A stretch of DNA of 64,000 nt from Onchidella celtica (Eukaryota; Mollusca; Gastropoda; Systellommatophora; Onchidiidae): contig OZ007569.1 of the NCBI GenBank assembly GCA_963931925.1, forward strand, positions 7,492,957 through 7,556,956, read 5' to 3'. The translations under genes were made by a program, and so were the position numbers. Shown here piece by piece: positions 13,860 through 62,000 of this stretch. Every line of letters starts with the position of its first letter. Position 1 is the first letter of the stretch. A model generated the notes under the pieces. The model searched no databases and had not been told where the DNA came from. It saw nothing but the letters and a program-made list of their open reading frames with translations.

Positions 13860-15947
13860 TCAACGCCATTTTTTAGCTGCTCCTCCCCGACCCCTGCCTC
13901 TCCCCCTACCTTTGGGACTTGAAGAATCATCAGAATCGTCATCATCACTGTCACTCTGTGCCTTCCTCTTCTTTCCTCTCCCTGCAGCTTTCCCTCTTCC
14001 TCGAGAGGCTCCTCTGCCACGGGCCGCCTTTCCTTTACCCTTGCTTTCCTCTGCAGTTCCTTCTTCAGCTTCAGTTTTCTTGGTTTCTGACTTACCATCA
14101 TCTGCAGCTGCCTTCTTTTTCTCCTGAGCTTCCTTGTGCTCTTTTCTCATGTCTGCGTATTTCACGAACACAGCACCCCAGCCACCCCCAGTTTTGGCAT
14201 TGGACCAGTGGTATCCTGGCGTCACGATGGAGAACCGTACAGCTTCCAGCATTATTGTATACAGTTCATCGTCTGAAGGGATGGGCAACTTCAGAATTTC
14301 AAACCAGTCTTGGTACGTTTTCATTTCACTGTTGATTTTAGTAAATGTCTCTTTCATCGTTGCTACCATTTCTTTGGTAGGAAATCCTAAGTTTTCGTCG
14401 TAGCGCTTGATGACCGCCTCCCTGGACATTCCTGCGGGCATCGCGATGTCTAAGAAACTGGCCTGGAAAGCGAGATGTTTCCGAGCGATCTCTGTTAACT
14501 CAAACGTGCGCTTTATTCTGTATTCTTTGGGTGTGTCCAGCATGCCGAGTTTTGCGTCATCCTTGACATACCAAATGACATTGCGTTTCCATGACTCACT
14601 GAGATAAGCGTCAGCAACATCACGCCACCTATATTTGAGAGATCCTGGCACCAGCATGAGCCATTCGGCAATGTAAGGGACTTTAGCCTTTGTCCTGTTG
14701 CTCTCATCTTCCACATAAGCCCTCACTTGTTCCTCAATCTTGTTTTGAAGAGCAGGATACGTGTCCACTGCCCACAGAAGTAGTCTGTGAAGGGCAAAGT
14801 AACCATTGAGACTGTTGTCGCTGGTGTGCTGAGTTCCCTTGGAAAATTCAACGACGGTTGCACTCATCAAGTTGGGCAAAGTCTTGAGAACCAAATCTTC
14901 GATGGGTGTCTTGGCGGGATCATACTTGGGCATGATCTTGGCTACTTCCTTTAAGGTACGTTCAAATTCCTCTTTGATCTCTGAACCATGATTAGGATGA
15001 ATATACAAAGGTAGAAATAGCCTGAGTTCCTCTTTCAAAACGCTATGAATTACACCAACTGCTTTCTTCATTCCATAAAATGAACGCCCGGTAAGAAATT
15101 CACATGGTGACGTCAGCGTCGGTCGCCAGTTTGTTCCAGAAACTGCTAGGCCATAGCCCCATAGTTCTTCAACACTTTTAGGTTTCACAGTTGTGAATTT
15201 TTCTTTCGACATGTAATCAATGATCTGAACAGTGTCCTTGCTTTCCCGTTCAAGATTTGACACGCTCGCTGCAGGAGATGCCTTTGATCCTTTCCCCTTC
15301 CCCTTTCCACCTGCCCCAGCGCCTTTACCTTTGCTCTTTGGAGCATCGTTTTCCTCCTCATTGTCCAAGGAAGGAAATGGCTTGTCATAGGTGTGTCCAC
15401 AATCTTTGCACTTGAAGCTTTTCGATAAGTCTAAGTTGTGCTTATATGAATGACTGGACGTACCCGAAGCTTGTGTCTCTGCAAGGAAAGCCACCACGTT
15501 CATTAGAATTGTCTGCACAGTGTACCCAGGAGACCATCCCAGACCTTTTTCGTTCTTCCACTCAGTGTGGTAATGGGCAAAATCTGAGAAGATATTCAGA
15601 CATACTTGAGTTCCCTTTTTCCCAGGTTTGGTGGCGCCACTGTGATAATTGAAACCCTGCGGTACAAATTCAGCACTGGGGGAGCTGTAGGGATAATTCT
15701 TGGGAAAGAAAAGGATGAGATGGAATATGATATCATCTTGTTTTATATTGCAATGCCATTCAAACATATCAGATTCCAGAGGTGTTGCTGAAACATTTTC
15801 TACAGGAGATCGCCTCAGTTCTTCTTGGTCAAACATGAATCTCTTCATGACAGCTTTTTGGTTAGCCGCCGCCATGACGGTGGTCTCGACTGGTCTTTGT
15901 ATTCGTGCTCCCTTTTCCTGTCGCCCTGTTTTTAGGGGTCGCAACAC
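13860..15947 (-). CDS. Intronless E2-like (UBC fold) protein with Zn knuckle and RGR-rich tail
   Basis: One uninterrupted frame of 695 codons. The Met at 15875 (GTCATGG context, giving 671 residues) is a better start than the first Met at 15947. Numbered from that Met: residues 8-140 read as a ubiquitin-conjugating E2 fold, with FFPKNYPYSSPSAEF (56-70) and a candidate catalytic Cys92 in GTQVCLNIF. The usual HPN is not seen. A CKDCGH knuckle follows (C156, C159), then a Lys/Gly-rich linker, a long conserved-looking region (LWGYGLAVSGTNW, SFYGMKKAVGV, VPYIAEWLMLVPGSLKYRW) I cannot assign to a domain, and an acidic tail with RGRGRGRG. The presence of an aligned Cys suggests ubiquitin transfer, but an inactive E2 variant is possible. 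The tail suggests nuclear location or RNA binding (inference). Confidence 0.9.
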   Translation of the reverse strand: MLRPLKTGRQEKGARIQRPVETTVMAAANQKAVMKRFMFDQEELRRSPVENVSATPLESDMFEWHCNIKQDDIIFHLILFFPKNYPYSSPSAEFVPQGFNYHSGATKPGKKGTQVCLNIFSDFAHYHTEWKNEKGLGWSPGYTVQTILMNVVAFLAETQASGTSSHSYKHNLDLSKSFKCKDCGHTYDKPFPSLDNEEENDAPKSKGKGAGAGGKGKGKGSKASPAASVSNLERESKDTVQIIDYMSKEKFTTVKPKSVEELWGYGLAVSGTNWRPTLTSPCEFLTGRSFYGMKKAVGVIHSVLKEELRLFLPLYIHPNHGSEIKEEFERTLKEVAKIMPKYDPAKTPIEDLVLKTLPNLMSATVVEFSKGTQHTSDNSLNGYFALHRLLLWAVDTYPALQNKIEEQVRAYVEDESNRTKAKVPYIAEWLMLVPGSLKYRWRDVADAYLSESWKRNVIWYVKDDAKLGMLDTPKEYRIKRTFELTEIARKHLAFQASFLDIAMPAGMSREAVIKRYDENLGFPTKEMVATMKETFTKINSEMKTYQDWFEILKLPIPSDDELYTIMLEAVRFSIVTPGYHWSNAKTGGGWGAVFVKYADMRKEHKEAQEKKKAAADDGKSETKKTEAEEGTAEESKGKGKAARGRGASRGRGKAAGRGKKRKAQSDSDDDDSDDSSSPKGRGRGRGRGGAAKKWR

Positions 15948-18900
15948 GTCCTATCTGTAAACGATTGAAAAAGAATACACTGAGTAATTCGTATATATTT
16001 CTTGAAAACTCTGACTTACTTATGATGGAGATGAATTGATATAACAGAGCTACAATAAAGGAGGGGAAAAAACTGCTGATGGCAATGCAGCTCTTTCTTA
16101 TTGTTGGTTGGTGGAATAAAAATGGGCCTGTCCAACAGTTACGACTTTAATACAACAGGAGAAAGCCGTGCAGAGTTATGTTCTTTTAAAAATGCAGGCC
16201 CAATAATGCAGCAAAACAAAACCCAGGACAGATCCTAAAAATATTAATAACCTTTTAATAACTTCACTGATCAATAACCACAGAGTTTGACGGAGACACT
16301 GATCGTGGTTTCGTCTCCCGTGTCACTAGCATTTACACTGCGTCCTTTATTTTGCTCTACTTGATGTCCTGTGTCAAAACTGGGCCGGAAAAGGTCAGTC
16401 CTTACGACATGTGCAAAATCTTTAACATAACACCGTGTTCAGAGGCGTGTCTGAGGTGGGACGGGTGAACACAGGCCAATGGAGTCAAATTTGGATCAGA
16501 TATATAAAAGAACTCAGTAACTAAGAACGCAATTCTTAAGGAGCGCCATTTTTTCTTTTCTTTCCTTCTTTATTTTTCGCCAAGGGTTTGTCATCCCCTG
16601 ATCACACCTCTAATCTTACTTTTACAGTGTATGCTTACTCCTAAATGGGAGATGTTGCACGCGAGCGCCCAAGTGATTCCTGTTTCTAAGATAACTGTTA
16701 AACGTAAACTGGTAAGGTTTGCATTTTGTGTATTTATAACAGAGAGTATGTATTTAAAGAGAGGATCTCACTTCCGCCAAATCCAGAAACTGTGTCTCTG
16801 CGGTAAACAAGAATTGAAAGAGACCGCCTTCATCAAAGATAGTGTGCTTGTCTGTTTACTGTGGTTTCTTCATATTTTTGGGCTGATTGAAACTATTTAG
16901 AGCCATTTGTAAGCTCTTACGCCCCGAGGAACTGCACAAACGGATATTGTTTACCGTAGAGGCCTACTTTCCGCTCCATGCTAACAGTGGTTTCACGGCG
17001 CCTACCGTGTCTCGCAATGCAAATCTACCAATAGTAAACCCTCTCTGTACACACCGGTACATACTCTCTGGTTTGCAATTAGTTTGTGTAAAATGTCGTC
17101 GTGTACACTGTTAAGATTTTTAGAATAATGAATTATTAACAAGGCGGCAAGTCATAACTTCCCATAACATGAACAAAATATCGCATTGTAAGTTAAAACG
17201 ATTCGTTATTGCGTTGCTGCACATTAAATAAAGTCAGTGTTTGAGTTACGGACAATAAAAACACATTTTTAAACGGGTCGCTGGGGGTTCCAATTTTCCT
17301 GTACCAAGTGCATTAAGGAAAACAGGGGTGCGCAGGTAAGCCCCTACCCTAGACTCTGATTTAATTTTTTTAATCGGGGCTACATTTTTATGGTTAAAAA
17401 AAAACAACAACAATTCTAGAATTCTAAAGAACAAAGTTTTCACGCAGGCCTGAACTTTTCATTTACTTTACTTTACTTGCTCTGCTCCCCCACGAGCATT
17501 ATAGTTATGCCCCTGGCCAAGAGATTGATTTTTCCAGACATGTCGGTGTAACCCTACGATCCACCGGCAACGGTAAGCTGTGCCGTGCTAATATTATTAT
17601 TATGTAAGCCAAAGTTCACCTTGCCGCAAGCTGAACAAGTTGCAGCTTGATTTGAAACTGGTCAGTCTACTCTCTCCTTGGTCAATTTAATTCCTTATGA
17701 ATACCGGCCAATTCTGACAATTTTATTACAACCTGTTTGTTTGGGTCCGATGCTATTGGGTTTTGTTGCCAGTGAAAAACTGAAGTTTATATTATGTACC
17801 ACATCAGACTAGATCAGGAAGGAAATTCAAACTCCTCTGCATCAAATCAAACATTGCACAAGGAAGAAAGAGGACAACTTTTCTATTTGTGACACTCCCC
17901 CCCCCCCCCCCCTGTCTTTGCTATTACAGTCCAGGTCGAAAAGCCACCAATTATAAATTTTTCAATAGAACGAATATAAATTAAATCCTCCTTATGCCTG
18001 GCATATGTCTATAATATCTCTTTCCTTTGAGATAAAAGACCGTTAGAGGTGTTGAAAGGAACAAAATTGTGAAGAAATGCGGTTTGTGGTGGGGGGGGGC
18101 GGAGGGGGAGGGGGTGGATATGGAAACTGTAAAAGGAAGTGGTTGGGGGGCGCGTCGACAGGGCGTGGCTCCATAGGATATCGTCTTTTATACCGACTTG
18201 TACCCAAATTATTCTGGTGATGGGATACGATTTGCCGACGAATTCAGAATGTCATTGACAGGAAGCTCCAACACAACATTAGAGCAGAGGGAAGGTTAAA
18301 AAGGACAGACAGAATGAGGAGGAGCCGGTAACAAGGACATTAAAGAAGAAAAAAAAGCAACCTTACCTTCGCTGAGACAGCTCCGTGTCGTTGATAGCAG
18401 AGAAACAGATAAATGAGCTGAAGATCATCGATCTCGACCAAATGCAGTCTGTCAAAATCTTAATGCACTGTGGCAGGCCAGGACTTGATAGTCACTGAAT
18501 GCTGACTTCGCCCGATCGTTTATATTGTGCTTGGGTTTCCCAAAATAGGACCCTAGTTCACCGTGACCATATCCGCGAAGCACCGGAACAAGTCACATTA
18601 TTCAGCATCACTCGCTCCGCGAAGCCTCCGACTATTCTCTCCCCTCTTTTATGGCCCCCACCTAAATTTGACGTGCACAAACTGACAGTAATAAATGTTA
18701 TCATACAAGAGACGCACTAAAAAAGCAAAACATAATTGAACTACGAGATGAATGATCTTTAGCTTGCATCAAAATTACTGTAGGCTACACATACTGCTGG
18801 CACCAAGGAGCTTATAATAGATAGTACAAGGTCCGCGACAAAGTCTTTTTAAAGTTGCCTTTTTGGATTACCCGTAAAATCTTTCCTACACACATTTTAT

Positions 18901-41500: not shown

Positions 41501-43053
41501 TCAATGTAATGGTCAGGAATACTAGGAAGGAGGGAAAATCTGACAGGGTGGCATCTCACACTGCAGGATTCACTCCGTACAAGTTCATCTACCAATACAT
41601 CTCTGTATAGTACCAGACAATCAAATTAGGATTTCGGTGTAGGTGTTGAACCAAACAGCTTCTATAACATTATAAACATATTTTTGAAACTTGTTTCTTA
41701 TTTGCTTGCACTTGTTCCCTTGTTGATGCTTTCACTTTGTTGTGTACTATGAAAGCACGTGCTATTGTGAAGAATGTTTTTGGAGATGGAATACCACTCA
41801 CACCTGTGCATCCAGCACAAAGAGTCTAACTAACACTTCTGTAGACCTGACGTAATCGCCAATCCACAAATTTCAAACGCATTATCTGTTATGCAGGACT
41901 TTTTTTTTGTTTATCTGTTAGTGTTACATGGTACTACTTTTTTCTGCCAACTCTTTGCTACAGTCTGCATGACTGAACTCTGAACCACGGAACAACCAGG
42001 AATGCACAGAGATGGTAGCCAATCTTACCCCTTCCACAGAGAGTGCTTACCCCTTCCACAGAGAGTGGACCTTCAAATGCAGGTGCCCAATACACGGCAA
42101 CTATCTGAAAATGTGGCAAATTGTAGAATCAGAAATTTAAAAAAAAATTCATTTTTTCATTAATTTTCATTCATATCACAAGCAATTACTTCTATATATT
42201 ATATCCTTTTCTCTTTACTGTATCTCCTGCATCTGGACTAGACATGAATGGCATTTTACCCATCTCTCCTGGACAAGTATATGTTAGAAGTTAAACTGAT
42301 GCACAGTATCTGAAGAAACAAAGAGTAGTCCTCTGCAAGGTAATAGGCAGGTGTTCTAAAGTTTCTACGTTTCAGTTTCATGCGTGCTCAGACACCGGGG
42401 TCAAAAACAACAAACCAGTCGCTGATATACCAAAAGCTTGGATTGTGTAATACCACAAATGAAATTTCTTTAGCCAAGCAAGTTCTGCAAAAGGTGCAAG
42501 TTTGATCAGGTTCAAAGGAGCTCAATGGCTGGGACAGGGTTCACTGCACTGCCACTAAAAGGATTATTAGTTTAATTTCTCTCGCCACCCAAATTACAAC
42601 TGTAGGGTAAGAATAGATGAACGTTTATACTGTTTATATCAATATGTTATTATCAAAGATCTTAAAATAGTATTCACCTAGATTCCCTAGTCGCGCTGCG
42701 AGAACCAGCTCGCGGCGTCCCGGGCATGGAGAGCGAAAACAATGGCGGCTTGAGGTCAAGCTGTCTAAGCGGCGGCCTAGCAACGCTACTGTTTACCATA
42801 GGAAACACAAACCGTTTGCCTCGAATTTGATAGTAGGCCTACGATGTAGTACATAGTAAGCCTAGCGTGTTGTTTTACGTTGTCGAGAAAAGTAGATCTT
42901 GAGTGCTACAACAATCAGGAAAATGTCAGAGATTCTAGAATAAGAGAACATTGTAGGCCTACAATTGTTTTTAATACATGTATAAGGAGGTCTAGAAGAA
43001 GAAACTCAGAAGCTTGGACCGACAGACTCGCAAATTCTTACTTCAACGTGTGT

Positions 43054-43123
<70 letters not shown>

Positions 43124-46100
43124 CAGAGAGGGAGAGAGGGGTATTATAAGACGTACCACCATAACAGCTACAAAATCAGAAAAAATGAAAGTAATCGACA
43201 ACCTCACCCCCCCCCCCTCTAATGAAATAAACAGACGGATATATCAAGATCCAGCAGAAGCTCAAGTGCATGGGCAGACACTCACTAGTATCATGTGAGA
43301 GTGTGAGGGGGGGGGGGATAAGGCGCAAGCATGATAATGGCTACATAAAATCATAATTTGCTACGTCAACAGCAGCCTCCAACCACCTGTGACAGACACC
43401 CCCCCCCCCCCCCCCAAAAAGACAGAGAGAGAGAGACAGAGAGAGAGAAGATAGGGGAGACAGACATGTAGAGGAGAGGAAGAGAGATGAAAAAAGCAAC
43501 CACAGGGACAAGATACAGAGAGAGAGAGAGACATAACACTTATCTCGGTTACTCACCGGTTCTTTGTATCAGCAGCTGACGGATGTACTTGTAGTGGTCA
43601 TCACTACTGATGCTTGAATTGAACAGCCTTTGTATGTTTCTGCCTGTGAGATCCCTGATCCCTGAAGACATACCTCTCGTTGATAATATGCTCATGATGG
43701 TGCACCAGCATTTTGCAAAACAGCTTAACAGCTCCTTGTATGACCTGACTGACATGACTGTCTTCACTGGCAATATCGTGGCAATCTATGCTGTGATCCC
43801 ACAAATCTGAAAACACTTTGGTACCAACAGACTGCAGAACTTGTTTGCAAACCAGGGAAGGAAGATCTTTGTTGACACTTTTAATGGGTCCGTCCTTTCC
43901 AGTTAGTACAGATCTCAACACTTTGTCCGCAGCAGAAATGACCGTGTACATGTCTGCGGAATACAAAAGGCCATCCCTGTCCCTTCGACGTGTTAATGCT
44001 TCTGCCTCATGGGTGGTGTTGTCTTGACGTTGCAATAGGGCCTGACTACACCGATTGCACCGTGAAAGACAAGCAATCATTCTGCAGACAAATCCACTGA
44101 TATAGTGCAACACATGATCATGGTAAACACTTGGTGACTGCAAAATTTTTACAAGCTGTTGCTGCTCTTTTGGAATGTGCACCGTGTCGATGGTTTCTGG
44201 TTGAGGTTCGTCTCCTGATGAATCTTCGGTTTCTCCCCAGGTTGGGTTCAGTACCCTGTTGGTGGCGCTGGTTGTGGTCCCAATGTCACTGACACAATTG
44301 GCTAGTTTGGAAGGCATGATTTTATCCTTCAACAGAAGATTCCTGAGGGTCCATTTGAACTGCAGTGCAGTTGGATTGCTATTCCAGCCATTTTTCCTCC
44401 TGACTCTACTGAAGAATGTCTCCAAATGATCCTGTGAAAGGCGGTATGTGCAAAAGTAGTTGTAACCATCTTCAAACAATTTCTCACTCAGTCCCATGAT
44501 AGAACGCAAAGTGCATATGAATCCCCTATAAATCCGGTTTTGCGTCTGCCATCCACCAAGCGTTTGCCTCCTTTGTCATTAAGATTTTCGATGTACCAGA
44601 TTGCTTGTCGTATGACATCGAACTTCAGATGTTTGTTCCTAACGGTCATAGCGCTTTTGTATCCCTTTGCAAGAGGGTTAGAAGAATTACAGATATCAAA
44701 CACTGTCAATAATTCTTATAAAACATGTTGTGTCCTCGCTGTCAGCGAACTGGTCCAAACCGAGATCATAATTTGCAAAATCAATTGCATCTGCCACAGA
44801 TGAGCTGAGAACTTGAGCCGCCAACTTAACATTCATTTTGTTATTGTCACAGTGAATATGTTTTCCTTTCAGCTTGTTGGCAAGCACAAGATTGTCCCTC
44901 AGTTGCAGTTCATGCAGCTTCTTAATAAAATCCCACTTGATTTCTGACTCTCCACATTTTAACACACCCCAGTCCTTAAAACAGTTCCTTACGTTCTTGA
45001 GAAGATGACATGCATCAAAAACAAAATACACATGTTCCCCACCTTCACAGTCAAAATAATAGTTCATGGTGTTTGGATGAAGGTCGCATCCTAGTGCTGT
45101 TGCCGTCGACTGGTTGGTGAAGTTTCCGTCACACACAACTGCTCTCACGCAATGGCCTGTTTGGGATAACAGCGCAATCGCATCACGCACCAGCTGCGCC
45201 TGACTGTCCGCACTGATCTTGTCAATAAAAAAATAGCCCACGACTTGTTTGAAGTGTTGCTTCAATCCTACTACCATGAATGCAAGGCATTCAGTTGCCA
45301 ATGTGTCCTCACATCCAACTTGAAAATGTCCGAAGTTTACTGATCCCATGCATGTTTTGGTTCCTCTGTCATAACAGTGCCCCTTTTTAATGGCCATAGC
45401 ATCAAACATAAGAACAACATCTTTCCTGTCATCTGTTAGGTCCTTTTTCAGGGTAGCCAGTACCTCCGACAGAAATCCCGGTGAACAGTCCCGAGTTGAT
45501 GCCCACAGTCTGATTGTGTTGGGATGTGGCAAAGTCAAGTGACTTCTCAGAAAGCTGTACGCCTGTGGACTGTAATAATGCATTGTAACAGCAAACTCTT
45601 TCACTTTTTTAGAATATCGAAGTCCGCGGGGGTCGCAAGAAAGTGCTGCAATCTCATTTTCAATGAGGGTCAATGTGTCTTTGTCAAAATTCAAGTTGAG
45701 GAGGTTATGTTGCTCTTTGCTAAGCATTTGCATTTCTGTTAGCTTCTCCAGTAAGTTTGTCAGTTTACCATCTCTGCGTTGCAACTTTCGTTTCAGGAGC
45801 TTCACTTCATTTTGTTTCTCTGTAAGCTTTGTCTTCATTTTTGATAGTGCCTCTCTTGTTTTGTCTAATGTTTCTTCAATGGGAGGTTGTGCATATGAGT
45901 GGAATGTTTTGACGTAGGATGCTGATGGCTGTTGCTCATTCGTTTTATTCACGAGAGGCTGTCGCTTGGTGGGAGGTTGTCTGCTTGGCTTAACAACTGG
46001 CCGTTTGTGCAGTGGATATGTTGGGAATTGTGTTGGAACAGCCGTGTCTTTCAGCGTTTTCTTAAGCGTGTTCTCAATATAGTCGTCAGGGCAAAAATGA

Positions 46101-49100
46101 TCACTACATATGCGTGAATATTTGGTTGGCTTCCACAGAGAGCCATCTTCATTTTCTCTGGAAACATTCTTAATCCATTGATTTAATCTATCTGGTTGCG
46201 TCAAAGGGAAACTGGGGAAGAAAAATAAAAGCACTACTAAATGAACTGCCAAAACAAACTTTAGTACAGTTTTAGAATTGCGATCTAACTTCATCTATTA
46301 AAATGTATCCAGATCTACGATAAATGAAGCTGCTCTTGGCATTAGGCTATTCGACAAACATGCTAACATCACTGGCAAGGCTTGAAACAGAATAAATTTC
46401 CGGGTTCAGTCCCAGAATTACCCACTCCAGATTAGACTTAATCATCTTTTTCTTTGTCTTATAAAAGTAAATCTAGATCATGAGCCGAAGTCGTTAACAG
46501 ACAAGTAACTTTATATAGTCATGCCTTGATAATCCGAATCCCTCGATAAACCAAATGGATTCAATTTTGGACTCGATATTCCAAAAATTTGGTCTTCCTG
46601 ATCTGAACGGTCTAAATGGGAGCGAACAGTAGTTTTTCAACCGATAATCCGAATGATGCACCAAACTACCCATTAAATTCACTCACTCACACACGCTCCT
46701 AGTCCTACCCACGAACTTACTCTCTTGTTCGCTCACTCACTTACTCTCGTTCGCTCACTCACTCTCGTTCGCTCACTCACTTACTCACACACTCGTCACT
46801 CGACTCAGTCACTGTTGTCATGATTCGGATGTTGTTAAAACTCACGCAGAGAGTGAGTTGTTGTTGTTTTACCAGGGCCATGAGAAATTGGCTGGTGGCC
46901 TTGAACGGCCCTCGCGAATTATAGTTGGTGAGTAAATAAATGTAAAGTTAAACTATTGGATTCACGCTTGTCGGTTTTAATGTTCGTGATTAATAAGTAA
47001 TGGAGTAGGGGTGAAACAAGGTGGGGATAGTTGACATTGTTAAGTATGACTAGACAAGTTTTTGCACGTTAACTGGCTGGTAGAATAGTGCAGACGTATT
47101 ACTACAATTAAAATGGTGGGAGGTTTCGGCCAATGAGATAGCTGAACTAATTGGGCCAGCGGACTAGCACTGCTGGGTAGTTAGATAGTAATAAAACATC
47201 GTGTAACGTTCAGATTTATTGAATACAGACGAGCAGAAGCATCGTGTCGTGAAGTATCTCCGGTTGGCCAGTACCTGAACTGTGATTTGAAGACTAGAAG
47301 TCCTTGCTAACGGACTGACTGAGCTCTAGAAAGAAAGGTCTGAGTGGGCTGACCTTTGAAAGCCCACGCTGCGCTATTTTGATGTTCGCGCCTACCAGTA
47401 GGCGTGACCAATGGTAATATATCTTATTTGTTCAAGCATAATAGAAGATCAGAGATAGAGAGAGAACCACAGCCTCATAGGAAGTCTAAGGAAACCCCAG
47501 CTGGCACTCGACGACGAGTGGCCTGTGTTATAGAATTATTTCCATAGTATGATTGAAGTAATATGGCACATTGTTGATTCTTCTTCTTCTTCTTTCGTTC
47601 ACCAATCTAAATCTGCAGATTTGTTCTTTTAATAAAATCTACGGTTTTCTGCAGTTCTGGCAGAGCACCATAGAGTTTGATATTCAGGTCGGTGGGTTGG
47701 GGCCAATATGTTTCTCGCAGTGCTGAGAGGAGTGTGCAGTTCTGCAATATATGCTCCGTGTTTTGAGGAGACTGGCTGCACTCGCATATATGGCAGATGT
47801 TCCTATTTTGAACTTGGTGAACATGTGGTGGTGGAGCCTATTGTGACCAGTTCTTAGTCTGAACAATAGTACTTGATCCTCTCTGTTCAGGAGATGATAT
47901 TTATCCTGTTGGTTTATTTGCTGCCGTCTGTTGTTTTTGATGAGGTTTTTCTTCTCATAGTAGTTTAGGAGGCACTGTGGCTGCTCCAGGCCGGAGCCCT
48001 CCTTGGCCAGTTGGTCTGCCTTCTCATTGCCTGGGACTCCACAATGTGATGGTATCCACTGTAGGACTATCCTGCTTCTATTTCCAAGCTGTGTAAAACA
48101 TTTCTTCAGGTCGTTAAGCTTGCCAGCTTGAAGGGCCTCAAGGACTGATCTTGCATCTGTGAGGAAGACGATGTTGCTGTCCTCTACTTGAAGCTCTGTG
48201 GCAGCTGTCATGAGAGCTTTGGCTTCTGATCCATAATTATTGCAGAAGGTTCCGGTTGGCATGCTAATTGCCGTTCTTGTCGAGTCTGGATACTCTATAT
48301 ACACTCCGGCACCTCCGTTTGTTACAGCATTCTCAGCAGAGCCATCTGTGTAGACTCGAACCCATGATTCGCTTGGATACTTGTCATCAAGTAGGCCGAG
48401 TACAGCAGTTCTTCTTTCTACTTCACTTTGTTCTCCCTTGTTGAAGACACCATCAACGTCTGTGTGTATCTGGACTTGGGTCTCTGTCTCCTCCGTCCAA
48501 GGGGTCTGTTCAGGTACAGATGTCAGGGGGTGGGCAATCTGGGGAAGGTGTGATAGCTGTCTTCTTATTCGCTTTGCCTTGTGAATAAAGCTCGTACGTT
48601 TCAGCCTTCCCCTTGCCAGGTCTCCTAGCTTCTCTTTCATTGGGTGATTCTCTATGCTGTTGAATTTCTCTGCCTGGATTGCCACCCTGGTTTCTCTTCG
48701 TTCTGCAAGTGTTGCTATCTGGGTGATCTTCTCCATCTCCACAATGGGTGTTGACTTCATTGCTCCTGTGATGATGCGCAAAGCCTGGTTCTGAACTTTG
48801 TCTAACATCTGAAGGGCTGAGTTGGACGCTGAACTCCAGGCTGTTGAACCATATTCGAGGTGAGGGCGAATCCCTTGCTGATACACATTCTTGAGAATTC
48901 TTTCTGTCGCTCCCCATGATGTGCCGCTCAGTTTCCTCAATATGGCTAGCTTTCTTCTAGCTTTTGTCTCTGCCCTCTCGATGTGATTCCTCCATGAGAG
49001 CCTGGTGTCGAATGTGACTCCTAGATAGGTTGGTGCTTTGTCTTCCTTGAGTGATGTCCCATTGAGCTTGATGGCTCCAGCAGTCTGTTTTGGAGACAGG

Positions 49101-52100
49101 GTGAAAAGAGTAGTGGACGACTTCTCTTCGTTGACTGTGTCACAAATCCCAGACTGGGAGATGTAATAGTTTAGGACAGGACGACAATCACGAACAAACA
49201 AGTTTAACACTTAACAAAACAACCCATCAGACTCACACATTTATTAAACATAATTATACATATAATAGCGCAATTACATACATTATATTATTGAAATGAA
49301 CTGCCGTACAACGGCCTTATTCTCACACACACTCTCCCTCGGATCCACAATCCGGTAGTTACTCCTAAAGGCACTTCGGCCTCAGCCTCGCCCTTCAGGG
49401 TCTTAATAGCACACTAGTAATTCACTGGCACCGCAGTCTCTCAATATCACATTCCTATTGTCATACCCTTAGCACTCCCCTAGCACCTCAGCAGGGCAAT
49501 AACACATTATTATTTCCATAGCCATCAACATGGCAACAACATAGTATCAGTTCACTCTCATATCTACGTCCCTGTCCGTGGCCTGACTGCCACGACTTTA
49601 GGTGCCTCTACTGTCCTGCACCGACAGTCTCACTTCTGGCCTATGTATGGCCTCCGGCCCTATGCTGGCCTATCACTTGTGCTCATCGAGGTGGCTCTTC
49701 GGCCCGTCCCCGACACCTACAGAATAATATTACATTGGTATAATACCCTACCATTTCTATTCACTCCACCTCTCCTTACAACCCATGAAACGTACACACA
49801 CTAATTCACCTTTCACTCACCACACATCTTACGGTAACACACTTCCATCGGAGTACACACTACTCACTCGCGCTACAAATCCATGAACTCACTTTCATCT
49901 ATCGCTCGTGGCGCACATTGCTATATCCAATATCAAGGACTTCCACATTCCTCACATATACTTATTTACATCATGGTAATAGACGAATATAATATAATAC
50001 ATCAATCATAATAATCAATCAACGTTCTACATACCAGTCATTACTGGAACAACACTCATCCGTCTCCCGACTGCTTTCACTTATGTCCGCCCGCTGGGCT
50101 CTTATTCACAGGTCCGATCCGTAGGACCTTCTAACTTGCAGTGATAGTTATACAGCGCTTTCGCCTCATTCAGACCCCCCCCCACTACTCACAACAGCAC
50201 GCTTAACTTGCTGTCTACTGTGAGTCCTTCTTACTCTACACCCGCTCTGTAGCAATCCCCTTAATTGCACTCACTCCACTCGTGACAGACTGTGACACAC
50301 CACTTTTTCGTCCATGCTAAGAGGATGTCAGTGGCTCTTTGTAGTCTTCTTGTGGCAACTGTGGCATGTTCTTCCGTACACCACATAACTAGGTCATCTG
50401 CATATAGAGCTGTACGTATTCCGCAGGGTAGTTCTTGAACTAGATCATTTATGAAGATCAGGAATAAGGTGGGTGATATTACTCCTCCCTGTGGCACACC
50501 GTGTCTCAGCAGTACCTTCTTGCTGTGACATCCATCCAGCTGGACTCTTGCTCTTCTGTTGTGTAGAAGGCTCTTGGTCCACTTGTACATGCTACCAGTC
50601 ACTTTGTTGTCTCGCAGCTTCCTGAGTAGTCCGTCTTTCCAGACTTTGTCAAAGGCCTTTTGAAGGTCGATCCACACTGCTAATACTTGTTTCTTGTCCT
50701 GGAAGGCATCTTCAATGTCCTGTGACAGATAGGTTGCTTGATCCTCTGTGGAATAACACTGACGGAACCCTGCTTGCTGATCAGCCAGTAGGTGGTTGCT
50801 TTCCAGGTACCACTTCATTCTGTGGTTGACGATCCGTTCCATGGTCTTGCAGAGGCAGCTTGTCAAGCTTATTGGTCGATAGTTTCTTGCTGTTCCTTTG
50901 CCCTTTCCATTTTTGGGTATTGGGACCATGATTGCTTCTCGCCAGATCTGTGGTACTTCTCCAGTTTTCCAGCTGACGTTGAAGATCTCTAGTAATTTAT
51001 TCAGAGCTCCGGATCCGAGTTTCTTGATCATCTCATTTGGTATTCCATCTGCACCTGGTGACTTCCGCAGTTTTAGTTTGCTAATGGCAAGGTCTAGTTC
51101 TTGCCGTGTGATCCTTGTGTTCATGACTTCTGGCTGGTCTCCTTCGTTTCTCTCCGGGGCCTTGTCATTTCTTGCCTCCTTTAACTTGCTTGTACTTACC
51201 TCTATGTTACAGTCCTTAGCAAACACATCTGCAAAAACATTCGCTGCTGTTTTCTTGGTTAGGGTCTTGCCATTCTCTTGCAAAGTGACTCTGATGTTAC
51301 TATCTGTTCCTTCATCATTTAGAGCTTTAACCAGGTTCCATAGTTTCCTGCCGTCTTTTTCAAAGTTGAGGGAGGCTGTTTTCTCTTTCCAGCTCTTGCG
51401 TCGTGCCTGGAGCTTTCCTCTTTGAAATCTTGCCTTGGCTTGCTGGAGGGCATTGTGTTGCTGTTGTCCTGGGTTGTTTTCAGCCTGTATTCGTGCCTTT
51501 TCTACTTCTTGGTGGAGTTCGTCAAGATCCTTGTTCCAGTATGGTTTGTAGTTCTTTCGTGCTCCACGAGGTATTGTTTCCTTGGCAGCTTGAAGAATAG
51601 ATGAGTTGAACTCTTGCACAATGGTGTTGATGTTTTTCCCTGTTGAAATTATACTTGTGGCAAGCACGCTTGTTCTGTGTCTGAACATCATCCAATTGGC
51701 CTTCTTGTAGTTCCATCTGGCAAGGGTGCTGCTGCTCTTTATTAGCTCGTTTTCCACCATGATGAAAACAGGGCGATGGTCACTTCCTCCAAGTTGTTTC
51801 CCCACAGTCCTTTTGATCTTCCAGTCCAGGTCTGGTGTATAGAAGGCTATATCCGGTGTTGAGGTGGTATGCCAGCATCTTGAGTAAAATGTAGGTGGGT
51901 CTGTGGGCTGATTTATGAGAAGCAGTCCTAACTCATCCTGCCATGTTTCAACCTCCTCACCTCTCTTGTCCATGTGTTCATAGCCCCAGCTTTGGGAGTG
52001 GCTGTTGAAGTCTCCACATGCTATTAGCCTACCTCTAAAGGGAATTGTATCCAGGGACATGGATCGGTCGTTTGGGCAGTAATAATTGAGGATGTGGAAT

Positions 52101-55100
52101 TCCGTCTGATCTGTCCTGATGTGTAGTAGATGATATTCTGCTCCCTCCATTAGCACTTGAATCTGGCTTGCTCTGATGTTGTTTCTCACCAAGGTTAGAA
52201 TTCCTCCTTTTCTTCTGTCTGTCCGGTCGTTTCTAAAGCACTGGTATCCTCTTACCTTGAAAGCAACGTCTTTGCTGAGGTGGGTTTCTTGGATGCAGCA
52301 GATACTTACTTTCTCCTCAAAAAGGATGTTTTCTAGCTCTAACTTCTTGCTGTATCCATCTTTCTTGCTGTTGACTCCTTCAGCATTCCAGTGCATTATC
52401 TTTAAAGGTTGCTCCTTATCTTTGATGGTTTGGCCAGTAGCATTCCTCTCCTGCCCCCCGGCTCCCCGGGGCAGTCGAGAGGGACCTCCAGTAGCTTGGG
52501 TGGGCCCCTTCGAGGCTGGGGGGCCCGGCACTGCCGCTGCCTGGGGGGACTTCACAGGGCGAGCACCATGACGATAACTAACTGCAGACTTAGACATAAT
52601 AGTGAAAAGGGTGCGTGGTATCTAGGTTAGGCGCCCTACTCTGGCCAGATACCTCCGTCTTCAGCTTATTTTGCTAGAGCAGAGTTTGCTCATGCTCGGC
52701 GAGATGGCTCGGCCACATTTGTTTCACACCCCTGGTGGTGTTACTAAAGCCCCCTCACCGGCGACAAGGAGTGACCTCGAGGGGGACATTGTTGATGAAT
52801 TGAATAATGATTGTGCATATATATAAATAGTTTTTTTGCAACTGCATAATTACCTACAAGCCGAAGTGTGCTTCTGTAGGCTTGGAACGTACTGGGCTCT
52901 CCTAACATTCAAGCCCATATGATTTAGGGAGAGTTTGCGTGGCGACTGGCCAGTGGCGACTCAACAGTCACTTTAAATTGATATCTAGTTTCGTATAATA
53001 TACCTATTTGCTATTTGATTGCAGTACATCTATAAGGAACCATAATTACATGAATATCATAGATTAAGTTAGTAATTAGAATTTATTGCTTTGAATATAC
53101 CTCTATTGTCTTTTGTTTTGTTTATTAATATTTATGTAAAACATGGCCTGACCGGCCTGACATATATAGATACTCTAGTTGTTTAGTACTTTTCTTGTGT
53201 GGTTGTGTCCGAGTGTGAGTTAGCTGCCTCTCGTGCAGTCGAATGCTCCCCAAGACCCTAACTCTGCTCCTAACAACTGTCATGTCAGTGTCACTCACTC
53301 GATCACGCACTCACTCAAACCACCCACTGCCGTTGTGTGTGTGTGTGTTTTTTTTTTGGCCAAGTAGGCCTTCATTGTATGGATAGGCGCTAAATTCTAG
53401 GTCTACCCTCCTGCATTGTAAGTGTATGATTGGGTCATCGTCCAGTTCGAAAATTCGATAATCTGAAAGTTGTAGCTGGGCATGGAGGTCTTCGGATTAT
53501 CGAGACTAGACTGTAGACTGTTGGAATAGAGATCTATACAACACACCTTACTACTAGCCTACACTACACCGACACTACTATAGGCCCCTAACTAGTCTAG
53601 TCTACGACACGTCACTTCAACTTGACTAGATCTACACAAACGACTACATAAACTAGATCTAGCTCTAGATCTAGGTTCTCTTTAGAACTCAATCTGAATG
53701 CTAAATCAGCTGACTGAGTTAGAATGCATTACTGCCATTCAGACCATCATGGAATGAATGAGGCTGGAGGAAGGGGGGCTCGTTAACTTCTTAAAATGTT
53801 CTCACCTGTGAAAAGATCGGTCCGTTTCCTTGCTTCTACGATGTGTACAACCGGGGACGACACAAACGTAAACCATGCTGACGATGTGATCAGATGTTTT
53901 GGTTTCGCTTTCACACTGCTTCTCCTTCCCTTTACAGAAAAAGTAAACCAGGCTAACCGGAAGAGTTGTTTCTGACCTCAATGGCCGAAAGCGTTGAGGT
54001 ACGGTCACGTGACCTCACCAGGGAATCTAGGTTAATACTATTTTAAGATCTTTGGTTATTATACATGTACAGTATTTATAACTGGTGTGACAAGAAAATG
54101 CATAGAATTATTGTTTGGGTAAGATCTTGAGCACTGATTCATTGATCATCATGTGCCTAAAACTGTGATCCTGAATGCTGGCTGGATTTTCATACACTAT
54201 AAATCAGCAAACACCAGCCACTTGAAGGCATGGACAATTTTGTTCCATTTTGAAAAGCACCAACAATGCTGTGCCAGCCACGGTCTAGACAAGCTCAAAA
54301 CTTTCCTACCTCTCCCAGGTGGTTCAGCTTGATGTGTGGCTTCTGGTTGACTATATGTACTGGATACTCCCTGCAAATGCATGTGAAATAAATGGAATCT
54401 CAAAATACATGCACTGTTCGAAATTGTTTCAGTATACATTGTAAGCATACTGTCTGAGCATTCATACAAGTTCAGCTAAACCATCAAATATTTCTACTGG
54501 CAAACCTCGCAGTTGTTTTAAATGTATTATAAGCCAACTTTACAATTTTGGCCAAAAATCTAAGTTAAGATTGAACACAAATGTCAGACATCATCTGTTT
54601 GCCATGCACATTTCGCTACCTGGCCCCAAATTCTTTGTCTCACTTACTGCTGTCCTCCAGATATTTATTTTTGTCATGTGGTATTGCCATATACATGGAC
54701 ATTCTTTGTAGATCTGGCCACTTTGTGACTGCTTTTAGCCAGGCCTAGATGGACAAGTCCAGGCCTTAATCTCTCCTGACATTTCATCATAGCTACAATT
54801 CTTTTTTCTTTTTGCAATTTTACTGTCCCAGTCACATAGCATTTTCATTTCTATTGTTACAAGAAGACAATGCCTGTTTTAACCCTACCATAACTGCCGG
54901 AAAGCTAAATTTTGAGTGTTGATGAGAAAGACAAAAGGACACGAGACAATGAAATGGACAACGGTGTCCTGAGATGGCTCTCTGAAATGCAAGTGGTGAT
55001 CTGATAAATTTGTTGTTTGGAGTTCGCGCTAATGTGGACATTCTCATCTTAATCACCTACAGTTGAAGTAGCAGGATTAAAGTTTCCAGGCACGTGACAA

Positions 55101-58100
55101 ATTATTGGATTGATAGAAAACATCAGCAAACTTTTGGCCATACACTGAAGCATGCAGGGTCAGAAATAACACAAAATTAACTCTTCAGATACTTTACTTC
55201 AAAATAATACGAACGGTTCAGTCAGTAAAGTCAATTGTACCTTTCATAGTGGACTTTCTGAAAAGTAGCTGGGACTGTAGTCAGAGTGTGAAACAAGTGT
55301 GGGAAATTGATTCGGAAGGCTTCAGCGATTGGGAACGCATCCAGGAAGACAGTCTCCCCACCTTCAGTACATTCATCAAACCTACAATCAGAAGATCCTT
55401 CATGAGACAAACAATGCATTTAGACGGGGCATAGTCAACTTTTCAGTTCGTAGGGCCAGACCTGAAAAATTATGAGGCTACAGAGGGCCAGATGCTCTCG
55501 CCTCATATTGACTATATAAATGGCATGTTGTTTGGGTCTTGATTTGTAAACAAAAAATATCTCGTTTAATCTGAGGTGGGAGTGCAAGTGCCGGTGTGTC
55601 TTATATTTAATTTTTTTACACAGCTCAGTGACCGGTGTGTAAAATTATTTTCAATCAACCATGGGGGTCGGTCAAAATAGCTCGGCAGGCTGGATCCAGC
55701 CTATGGGTAAAAAAGTTGCCAGTGTCTGATTTAGACAGTCCCTCCATGCTCAGTCTGCTCACCAAACCCTAAGAGGAAATGAATTTATTACGTAAATCAC
55801 AGTACAAAAGCAACAAACTAAACTGTAACAGCAACAAAGGATGAAATGCAAGGCAAACTATGCAAATGAAAGTCAGTCTTCATGGCTTTTGGATTGGTGG
55901 TTCTCAGATATGGTTTGATTCAGAAAATTAGCGAGTCAGTTTGCTATTCATACCACAGTGACAACAAAGCGATACAACAGGACAGCAAGATTCCATTAAA
56001 AAAAAATCACTTACCTCACCCTTTCTTGAATGAATTGAATACGCCCGAGTAACATCACTTAACATAAGCCGTCGCAGATTTTATTAATATGAAAACAGTA
56101 AGAAAGAAATACCTTAAAAGGAATGTTTAGCTTTAAACACGTTTTCTGGTTTTACGAAGGATTATAATTCCTTCGGTAAGACAGCCGTGGGTATACTGAA
56201 ATATGACTTTCAAAATTTCAGCCAAACAGTGAATATAACCTCTATCAAATTCCTCTCTAGCCATTCTGAAATCAGTGACTTTCAGTCTGAAAATCCAGGG
56301 CTATTGTGAATAATTGGGTGCATTTTTACATAAAGTGCTTGAACTTCAAGTGAAGAATGGAAATATTTTCCCAACAACGACGTCCTACAGCAGACAGACA
56401 GTCACAAATAGTGTTCTGGCAACAACAACTGAATACTCTCCACCACCCCCCCCCCCCCACCCCCGTACATCTTACTGAAGACAATGTAACAACTGTATTC
56501 CAGGTGGAGATTCAAAGTAAGCCAGGTCTTGATGAAGGTCAAGGTGCATCTCAGAAAAGGCCAGATTTATGGGATCTTTCACAGCTTTCACATCAAATGT
56601 CTGAAACAATATCAAGTTCAGAATTTCCTTATCAGCAGCCTGGGCGATGAAAATCACGATAAACCTACACGAGTACAAATAATTTTATGTCTGATAAAAC
56701 TCGCCAACCATCATGAGCCATCGTTACTTTCTCTCAAATTAGTGTCAGTTATTGTCATAGGGTTTTGGTGGAGATACTCAAGATAATTTAGGATTCAAAT
56801 AAGCAATAGCATGGGCCTTTGTGCCGCAGAATATTACCTTCAAAATATAGAACATTATGAGATAGGTAGAATACCCAGATGTAATCAAAGGTTTCTGTTC
56901 AAGATATACTTTTTCAACATGGAAATAATTAATCTGCAACACTGCTTTTGTAATATTTGAAGTACATTATAACTTGTGTATCAAACCAATTTGCTCTCAT
57001 AGTTGCTTTTTATTTGTGGGGGGCAGGGACTTATCTCAGAACCATTGACAGAAAATAAACTTACTACTCCATAAATTGAAGTCCACACCGGTCCTATCAG
57101 TTCAGCTACCTGCAATTATTATTACGAGAGATAAAAATATAAACAGGTAAAAACTTATGGCTTTGCCTCTAGTAGTTAATTCTTTTAAATCTTCGTCTTG
57201 CCGTCTCAAAATTAACTGTACGAATTACTAAAAAGCAATTCTTTCTGTTGTAAACTCATTTCAAAGGGAACCAGAGGAAATATTCCAACAATAGTTTTAC
57301 ATTATGAGTTTAAAAAGGAAGAATAATAAAAACAAGACAATGCAGCCCACAGACTAATAAAATACCCAGACTGGATGGTCCCATTGTGTGACGTCACAAA
57401 ACAGCGAAAGGTCATGAACCATCCGCCATATTAGGTTTAAGGTAGCGACCGACGCTTCATCATAGCTACAATTTTGAATGATACCATTTTGACGCACCTA
57501 CTAAACGCGGAAGTTTGGTTCCGCACCAAGAAATTAATACATGTGCAACCAATCTTGACAAATAAAAAGAAATTTCTACTGCAGATAGAACTAGAATCGG
57601 AATTTCCCGAACGGCGGCCATGTTGGTTATACAGTCGTCGCTCGGGAAATTCCGTAGAAAACGACACAGCCGGAAGCTCGTGTTTCCAGTCTGGTTAATT
57701 TATTAGTCTGTGATGCAGCCCAGGCAAATGATACTATCTATTGTGTGTAAAATGCATATATCAATGCCGTGCGTGAGCTGCACATGGCAAATGTGACAAT
57801 TATCAAACTTTTTGAAATAAGGTAAATTACCTTTGTAACTTGGTGTTCTTCTGTGGGCACCCCTTGCACAATACTTAAACCAGCTTCATTAATTTGCGGT
57901 AGCCACCTGGAATGAAATATATAACATACTGTTAAAAAAAATAGTACAGACTATTAATTTATGGACTAGGGAAAAATGAATTTTTATTTTCATTGATATC
58001 CATGATAATTTGTGGCAAGAACAGGAGGTGGGTTACACTGGTTTGTACTGTAATATAGCTTCTATATAACTACATGCTTTTGTTCAAAGAAATGAAAAAA

Positions 58101-59049: not shown

Positions 59050-62000
59050 CCAAATGCTAGAGACAGGAACATGTTCTCACCAGTGGTGGTCTAAGTAAGT
59101 ATTGGGTGAAGTTGGAAAAATTACAGAAAAAGGGCTGAAATGCACATGTATTAAAATGTTATTGTGTTAACTGTCCTGTGTTTGGCAGTATACCAAACTG
59201 TGAAGGGCTGATATTTTCACAAAATAGAAACATTCAGTTTAAATGAGATACTTACAAAATGTATCTTCACTTACAAGTAAGCAAAATTAATACATACCTT
59301 AAGCGTGCATTTTTTGATGTCATGATGTCTTCATACGAAAAGAAGGGAATTTTCTGTAACGTGAAATGAATTCTATTGTTAATGATATAATCAATGTGTT
59401 GCCTTCAAGAGAGGATAATAATTAAACACCCCCCCCCCCGGGCACAATTGAATTATGAAAATAATACTTAGCTTTGAAACGTAGATAAAAAAAACAACAA
59501 AACGAAACTAATAAAAACCATTTTAAAACACTGAACAACCTACAGCGACAGGTCTGTCACACTTGACTGCTTGTCTTTTGGCTATCATTGTCTCCATGCT
59601 GTAGTTGGAGTCTCGCAAAAATGTCACTGGTAGACACCCATTGTGGCTGCCCTCTGAACCGTTCCATGAAATGTTCAGGTGGTCACCTGAGTCCGCATCA
59701 CGGGGGCCGCAAGAGATCATGAGGTAAGAAAAAAAACATTATAAAGTGTGTAGAGCAGCATTGCACAGACACGCCCACTCTAATTTCTAGGGCACACTTA
59801 GGAAGACTACTCTTATACACCACCACAGACTAATAAATTAACCAGACTGGAAACACGAGCTTCGGGCTGTGTCGTTTTTTACGGAATTTCCCGAGCGGCG
59901 GCCGTATAATCAACATGGCCGCCGCTCGGGAAATTCCCATTCTAGTTCTATCTGCAGTAGAAATTTCTTTTTATTTGTCAAGATTGGTTGTACATATATT
60001 AATTTCTTGGTGCGGAACCAAACTTCCGCGTTCAGTAGGCGCGTCAAAATGGTGTCATTCGAAATTGTAGCTATGCTGAAGCGACGGTCGTTAGCGTAAA
60101 CCTAATGTGGCGGATGGTTCATGACCTTTCGCTATTTTGTGATGTCACACAATGGGATCATCCAGTCTGGGTATTTTATTAGTCTGTGTACATCACAGAG
60201 TAAATGTGCTCTGTTTTTCATAATTTAATTTTTAAAAAGGAAGCATTTGTTACCATCCCGGTACACACACTGCACATTTTCATCCTGGTATTAGACATGA
60301 ATTAATTAGTGAGTATGTGGGAAGTGATTTTCACCAGTTGCCATGCCTTTACCCATAATTATATAATTTTCTATAACAAACAGGTGGATTCTGACCAATA
60401 AACATTTTCAAATGTTACGTTACTGTGAAAATAAAAACAAAGTGCCATTCAAACACTGAAAAATATATTTCATGGGTGAGCGTAAAATCAAATTACTTTT
60501 CCAAAAAGCAGTTGCCAGGTGGAAACAAAAACCCTGCCAACTCTACACCGGTACTAGAATTTTCTGGAACGAATTACCAGCTGGGCTTGAGGATTGCAGT
60601 TGCAATTACAGTTCTAGCCATGTTAGCTTTCTCCAGCCTACATTCACCCACGGCGTCACAGTGTACATTTATTTGTAATGGTCTTTCATGTCCAGTAAAG
60701 ATTTTCCAACCATATTTATCGTATTATATATAGAGGTTTTCTTTAATCAGCTCCACTAAACCTGACGCTAGAATGATGTTTCACAATGTGACAGACCGTC
60801 ACTTCCCTGATAAATCTTTTTTATTTTTACTAGCAAAGACTAAGAGAAAGTTGTTGAAAACTGCGTTTGTTACAGCGTTTATCTTTATGTGACAGAATGG
60901 AAAACATTAACACAATAATACATGTAGGCTATCTGAAACACTAAGTTGAACGAATCGTGAACCCTTTATTGTACATAAAAGACAACTATAGTATCCTTTC
61001 CCTTTCCAACAAAATAAAACACTTTTCCTCTACATGTGGACAAAACATCTTTTATACCTTCAGAAATAACACTGTCCATATGAATGCTGGCCGGTATAGA
61101 TGTTGGATCCAGCAACTTCTGGCCATTGGCATGTCGGCACGCTTTACAGTGGCAATTGAATCTCAGCCAAACAGCATGGAACCTCGGAAATCATACAGAA
61201 GAATAATCAGGCAAACCATACACTTCGCTGTTATCTCCTGCTTTGTGTCTGTGTATGTATCATAATCATTTCTATCATTTATAAATCAGATTATACTCGA
61301 AGATTTGTTGGTTTCTCTTTGTCCTTTAATCGCTGGACGATGTGTGTGTGTGTGTGTCTGTATGTGGGTTTGAGTGTTCTATCGTTGCATATGCAATGTC
61401 ATTTAGGAAAGAATTCAGTGAATACTGAAATTTTGAGGTTGGTGAATTCTTCTTAAAAGTCAACATTTCAATAACACAATCTGCCGTTATAAAAGAGATC
61501 AATAATGCATAAAAGTTAACAGGATAATTATGATGAGAAATGCATACAACTGTAGAGAAGATAGAGAATATTAGAGAGAGAGAGAGAGAGAGAATAATAT
61601 ATCTATATTATGTTCTGTAACACTGACTGACAGATCATTATGAAGCGATTGTTATTATTCTTGTCCCGAGGTCACTTAACCAGAATCCATCACACCACAC
61701 AAAATTTCCCTGTCACCACATTTGTGTTCCTCCTTGTTTCTCCATGAATATTGGAACTGTTTAGCTAATGACCAGCTCTTGGCCAACCACCCCTGTTCTT
61801 GCCTACGTTTTTCCTTTTACTCACTCTGTCTGAAATCCGTCATTCCATCTAACCATTACTGTTTCTCCTTTGGGATTCACTGCCACTGATTCCACACCAG
61901 GCCCACTTGTCTTTCTTGCCTGATTAAACATGCATTCACCAAATAGTTTTAAACAAGGCAACTCCCGCATTTTTATTTTTAGTCTTTAAATATGTCTAGA

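Follow-up and report, generated by a model that had tools for sequence, protein, structure and literature searches.

The window analysed here, a 64-kb stretch of the Onchidella celtica genome (C3:7492957-7556956; searched genome 1.14 Gb in 43 contigs), carries a BBOX-like, TauD-type gene on its minus strand, and two exons of that gene are separated by a stack of transposable elements. The exon 5′ of the insertion (54310-54370) has its donor at 54309, and the exon 3′ of it (42051-42104) has the acceptor ttttcag and the donor gtaagc; the splice sites are proper and the exons join in phase 0. Peptides of the joined exons match TauD (Pfam, E 5.1e-29). Five distinct sequences in the structure archive match the peptide, TmpA first, then three gamma-butyrobetaine dioxygenase sequences and DfmD, and together with the TauD match this makes the name 'BBOX-like' fair, orthology itself not being implied. 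The peptide holds HxD and a distal H, which we take to be the motif of this family. A 32-aa candidate exon of the same gene gave no match to a GBBH-like N-terminal domain. A perfect tandem duplication of 22 bp (42024-42067) repeats the 3′ end of a BBOX exon, including its splice donor; if the outer donor were used, 22 bases would be added and the frame shifted.

The outermost layer of the stack is a complete P element on the minus strand (42654-54054; 11,401 bp including inserts, 4,401 bp without the pogo-like element and its contents). Its terminal inverted repeats (TIRs; 42654-42691 and 54017-54054) are 38 bp long and identical at 36/38 positions, where the chance of a single 38-nt pair matching this well is ~1e-18, and the 8-bp target duplication GTTATTAT borders it at 42646-42653 and 54055-54062. 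These features, with THAP, P-type HTH, RNaseH and GTP-binding domains (Pfam), place the element in the P superfamily. On the minus strand, the coding part of transposase exon 1 (53806-53876) supplies the start of the THAP domain, and exon 2 (43604-46211) the rest of THAP, Tnp_P_element, RNaseH N, the GTP-binding insertion and RNaseH C. The frame is broken twice (~44500-44740), so that the window copy lacks the intact transposase that autonomy, rather than membership, would require.

The transposase intron (46212-53805, minus strand; 7,594 bp, or 594 bp without the pogo-like element and its contents) has GT/AG borders and lies inside the THAP coding sequence. Joining the exons gives a whole THAP domain (1-87 of 87, E 1.7e-19), against positions 20-87 (E 8.2e-12) without exon 1, and splicing of both this intron and that of the BBOX-like gene is predicted. 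Among 107 related proteins listed (nearest named by score: Elysia, Plakobranchus), a simple THAP pattern was found in 23, of which 11 are unbroken through the domain start, and may be spliced models or intronless, and 12 begin within the domain. In 9/12 of the latter the break falls directly ahead of one shared FP motif, a pattern that an intron long present in part of the family would be expected to produce. As for subterminal repeats, only two shared inverted 9-mers lie near the P ends, not clearly above the ~0.5 that we estimate by chance. The original prediction had named the two host exons, a same-strand THAP/P transposase between them and this intron, and each is borne out: the exons by splice sites and matching phase, the transposase by domains and strand, and the intron by its GT/AG borders and the whole THAP domain that its removal yields.

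Elements within the transposase intron

Inside the intron lies a pogo/Tigger-like miniature element (46516-53513) with TA at 46514 and 53514, 533 bp long without its inserts (46516-46815 and 53281-53513). Its inverted repeats match at 24/34 positions, which for the left end is the best inverted match anywhere in the 64-kb window; 0/200 mononucleotide shuffles of the window reached 24 matches (best 23). The termini, CAGT...GATAATCCGAA, presumably resemble Tigger ends. The element thus has TA target duplications and short TIRs, as do pogo and Tigger elements, and at 533 bp is too short for a transposase of its own; three short frames from the 1.78-kb region comprising pogo and LTR-X had no match in Pfam. 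No second copy of the left end (~100 bp) was present among 40 scored of 577 candidates in the genome, and neither an empty pogo site nor a pogo copy outside P was seen in the copies read, so that it is the inverted repeats and the TA dinucleotides that suggest that this layer began as an insertion. Pogo-type transposases measure 300-977 aa (PMC7386202).

Within the pogo-like element sits a solo LTR, LTR-X (46816-53275; 1,242 bp once the LINE and one target copy are subtracted, 46816-47578 and 52797-53275), flanked by the duplication ACTGT (46811-46815 and 53276-53280). A genome search with 52786-53515 (40 scored of 1442 candidates) gave non-window matches that stop at base 490-496 of 730, one excepted, which stops at 531, and the three LTR-X copies read start at the base equivalent to 46816. 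One of these, a solo LTR on C14, is flanked by GTCAC; the other two form a pair on C18 with the duplication CTGAC and 3/1241 substitutions between the LTRs. LTR-X is therefore, on the strength of a same-strand pair with 5-bp duplications (one pair read, more matched), an LTR retrotransposon family. Substitutions in the window copy number 10/1240 relative to C14 and 15 and 16/1240 relative to the two LTRs on C18, and the LINE site is empty in 3/3 of the LTR-X copies read elsewhere.

The LINE (47579-52785, minus strand), of APE-RT-RNaseH structure, is bounded by an 11-bp duplication, ACATTGTTGAT (47568-47578 and 52786-52796). As the region contains 82 distinct 11-mers that occur more than once, such a duplication would be unremarkable alone; the case for insertion comes from its position at the LINE ends together with the sites found empty elsewhere. 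The endonuclease (APE) and RT domains precede the innermost insert, LTR-Y, and RNase H follows it, the 3′ end is tailed, and the LINE is open as a single frame of 1,260 codons once LTR-Y and one copy of GACTG are omitted, many relatives being ~1,270 aa. It may belong to the I/Nimb/Ingi group. Genomic matches are 99-100% identical over 1,549-1,554 of 1,554 bp (40 scored of 1967 candidates), and one copy read shows 2/1552 substitutions and a 2-bp gap relative to the window LINE, similarities that mark this layer as young. With a LINE so young, the species may still be polymorphic at this site, and the order could then be tested directly.

LTR-Y (49138-50287; 1,150 bp, TGTCAC...GTGACA) is a solo LTR flanked by GACTG (49133-49137 and 50288-50292). 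It has at least 46 genome matches (40 scored of 3884 candidates). The matches listed include at least 11 same-strand pairs, 5,980-7,209 bp start to start, and two partial matches that pair at a distance of 4.4 kb, the others being partnerless in that list. The one pair read, on C3, has the duplication AGCAT, 0/1193 substitutions and one 2-bp gap; same-strand pairing with 5-bp duplications marks LTR-Y too as an LTR retrotransposon family. The window LTR-Y differs from that pair by 9/1150 substitutions, a 39-bp gap and two small gaps. No exact match to the LTR-Y end was found in viral contigs.

The predicted nest is accordingly real, though one layer deeper than had been proposed, and its outer 'gene' is a whole P transposon with TIRs and target duplication. 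The pogo-like element said to fill the intron does end in TA-flanked inverted repeats, but since LTR-X, which was overlooked, lies between pogo and LINE, pogo proper measures only 533 bp. The LINE has the 11-bp duplication ascribed to it, but its host is LTR-X, and direct insertion into pogo is rejected. The innermost call, an LTR in the LINE at 49138-50287, stands, with GACTG on both sides, as does its reading as the solo LTR of a true LTR retrotransposon family, given the pairs elsewhere.

Sister copies of the P element

Five P copies besides that in the window were compared, on C4, C7, C8 (at 46.10 Mb and 42.47 Mb) and C13. The C13 copy was read in part, short of its ends; the other four were read as far as both ends, which carry P TIRs, and are flanked by differing 8-bp duplications. 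All five (5/5) contain pogo pieces, which implies that the pogo-like element moved with P. Four of the five (C7, the two on C8 and C13) had been selected from 63 matches to the left part of pogo, and all four proved to be within P elements. A sample of C4 (20 × 10 kb) contained no pogo or LTR-Y match and a LINE match of 38 bp only, LTR-X being covered in that sample by the pogo-flank queries only.

The C4 sister is 4,503 bp long, with the duplication GATAGGAC and 67/4475 substitutions relative to the window copy. It lacks 46475-53333 but retains 180 bp at the right end of pogo, including the TIR; the frame breaks of the window copy are absent and it has its own breaks instead. Three sisters are deletion derivatives, of 1045, 1886 and 1773 bp, each with both P TIRs, a perfect target duplication (CCTTTACC, GTTAAGAA and GTCCGACA) and pogo pieces. 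The LTR-X site is clearly empty in the copies on C7, C8 (46.10 Mb) and C13; it is lost in the C4 copy, and the copy at 42.47 Mb on C8 runs ~5 bases past it before a deletion joins to the P right end. Among the P copies read that span the site, the LTR-X insertion is present in the window copy only.

Over 709 columns of the right P end (four copies), private sites number four in the window copy, five in C7, eight in C4 and none in C8 (46.10 Mb), with none shared. Over 368 columns of the left end (five copies) they number two in the window copy, three each in C7 and C4, two in C8 (46.10 Mb) and none in C8 (42.47 Mb), and one site is common to C7 and C4. The differences are star-like: descent from a common master would fit as well as or better than descent from the window copy, which may nonetheless be the parent.

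The 42.47 Mb locus on C8 is a P/pogo hybrid miniature element of 1,045 bp. Its 62-bp match recurs at 94-97% in 18 other loci, which may be copies of it.

Order of events and alternative explanations

By nesting, the order is P, pogo/Tigger-like miniature element, LTR-X, LINE, LTR-Y. Nesting is silent on whether P already had the pogo-like element when it entered the BBOX intron or acquired it afterwards. Substitutions relative to the nearest copy read (P 67/4475, LTR-X 10/1240, LINE 2/1552) follow the nesting order for these three, and LTR-Y (9/1150) is out of line; lying inside the LINE, it must be the younger, and so the nearest LTR-Y relative read is not its source. Divergence of the P copies was rejected as a proof of P having been the first to arrive at the locus: it dates the split between copies and not insertion here. 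Because DNA transposons carry their contents with them, only layers with empty sites in sister copies of their carrier can be dated at the locus; LTR-X, the LINE and LTR-Y look later and local. Of the sequence in time originally predicted, LINE before LTR-Y holds, whereas 'P-type gene, then pogo' is not supported as an order at this locus, since pieces of pogo occur in five other P copies and P may have brought it here. The locus illustrates in detail that depth in a nest need not give the order in time.

The following account, drawn from the boundaries and duplications, the sister copies, the empty sites for LTR-X and the LINE, and the LTR pairs of both families, is in our judgement very probably correct as a whole. 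A THAP9-type P element would have inserted into the intron of the BBOX-like gene. Within its transposase intron the pogo-like passenger should be cost-free to the transposase after splicing, and it has travelled with P; internal deletions would then have turned some sister copies into P/pogo hybrid miniature elements with differing 8-bp duplications. In the window copy, LTR retrotransposon X would have entered the pogo part and shrunk to a solo LTR, a young LINE would have entered LTR-X, and LTR retrotransposon Y would have entered the LINE and likewise become a solo LTR. The more general claim, that the P intron has sheltered an unrelated cut-and-paste element, making it a heritable passenger at five or more further sites and part of the cores of hybrid miniatures, we regard as likely. 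If so, one DNA transposon has multiplied another without the transposase of the latter.

Nesting alone would permit P to have entered the BBOX intron and pogo to have entered that same copy, the other P copies being its descendants, and the whole pogo-like element is indeed found, among the copies read, in the window copy only. Against this, the star-like differences suit a common master at least as well, and even with the window copy as a possible parent we consider such a stepwise history unlikely. Somewhat less credible still is that 'pogo' is native intron sequence of a P subfamily and its inverted repeat accidental. Every pogo copy read lies within P, and an independent one was not found among 40 scored of 577 candidates, as that explanation would have it; however, an accidental repeat would have to be the best inverted match in 64 kb, exceed 200/200 mononucleotide shuffles and have TA exactly at both ends, and the termini resemble those of Tigger elements.

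A misjoining of unrelated repeats in assembly deserves mention, as repeats are where assemblies fail and the locus is judged from assembled sequence alone. Yet each border has its own duplication, the P sisters have other duplications, and the LTR-X and LINE sites are empty elsewhere, which together render an artefact extremely improbable. Nor do we give any real credence to the transposase being a domesticated THAP9-type host gene: its frame is long and nearly intact, but the complete TIRs, the target duplication, the sister copies with other duplications and the two frame breaks led us to reject it.

Comparison with known elements

Deep nests are already known, as are P elements flanked by 8-bp duplications and P-MITEs whose core is not derived from P. 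In Anopheles gambiae (PMC1562414), P elements have a THAP transposase, perfect 8-bp duplications, TIRs of 27-31 bp with few mismatches in most clades and three putative exons; autonomous copies measure 4.2-7.5 kb, and the central part of P-MITEs is unrelated to P. The Onchidella elements resemble them in their THAP transposase, 8-bp duplications and miniatures with a non-P centre, and differ in having 38-bp TIRs and two exons; moreover, unlike in the P-MITEs as described there, the non-P part of the Onchidella miniatures is traceable to the pogo-like element in the transposase intron (PMC1562414). This shows one place from which a P-type miniature can draw a core foreign to P. The study of zebrafish Pdre2 and THAP9 (PMC10983969) describes a THAP9-type P with TIRs beginning CA and 8-bp duplications, as here, although Pdre2 has 13-bp TIRs and distant 12-bp subterminal repeats where the Onchidella element has 38-bp TIRs and no clear subterminal repeat.

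Members of the pogo superfamily share TA duplications and, in most families, TIRs of up to 40 bp, and are present in Mollusca (PMC7386202); the Onchidella element differs in being 533 bp long and without a transposase, and its family assignment is tentative. That such a clean stack is 'rarely seen', as originally supposed, is overstated. Reconstructed nests of elements within elements on wheat chromosome 3B reach 8 layers (PMC4290129), and nesting is described as common and as occurring across eukaryotes in a paper on software for ordering nests (PMC2672092). Wheat 3B is, in contrast, a plant chromosome of 85% TE (PMC4290129), whereas in Onchidella a single animal intron houses a LINE, two LTR families and DNA elements of two kinds. 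Judged from search listings, no report of a P/pogo hybrid was found in the open-licence PMC literature.

Other features of the window

Rfam and tRNA scans over the 64-kb window gave no match. An intronless UBC-domain gene of ~700 aa (13860-15950, minus strand) has relatives in many molluscs, with 71% and 73% identity to Plakobranchus and Aplysia genes, respectively, these being the highest-identity named matches that cover most of the gene, and they point to a heterobranch gastropod as host. Frames of a second LINE lie at 3599-5568 (plus strand), the middle one with a reverse transcriptase domain. A 368-bp repeat is present as inverted copies of 93% identity (57348-57715 and 59821-60188), and a long tandem repeat (892-1797) has open frames on both strands, one of which reads YKHYKFTD-like repeats.
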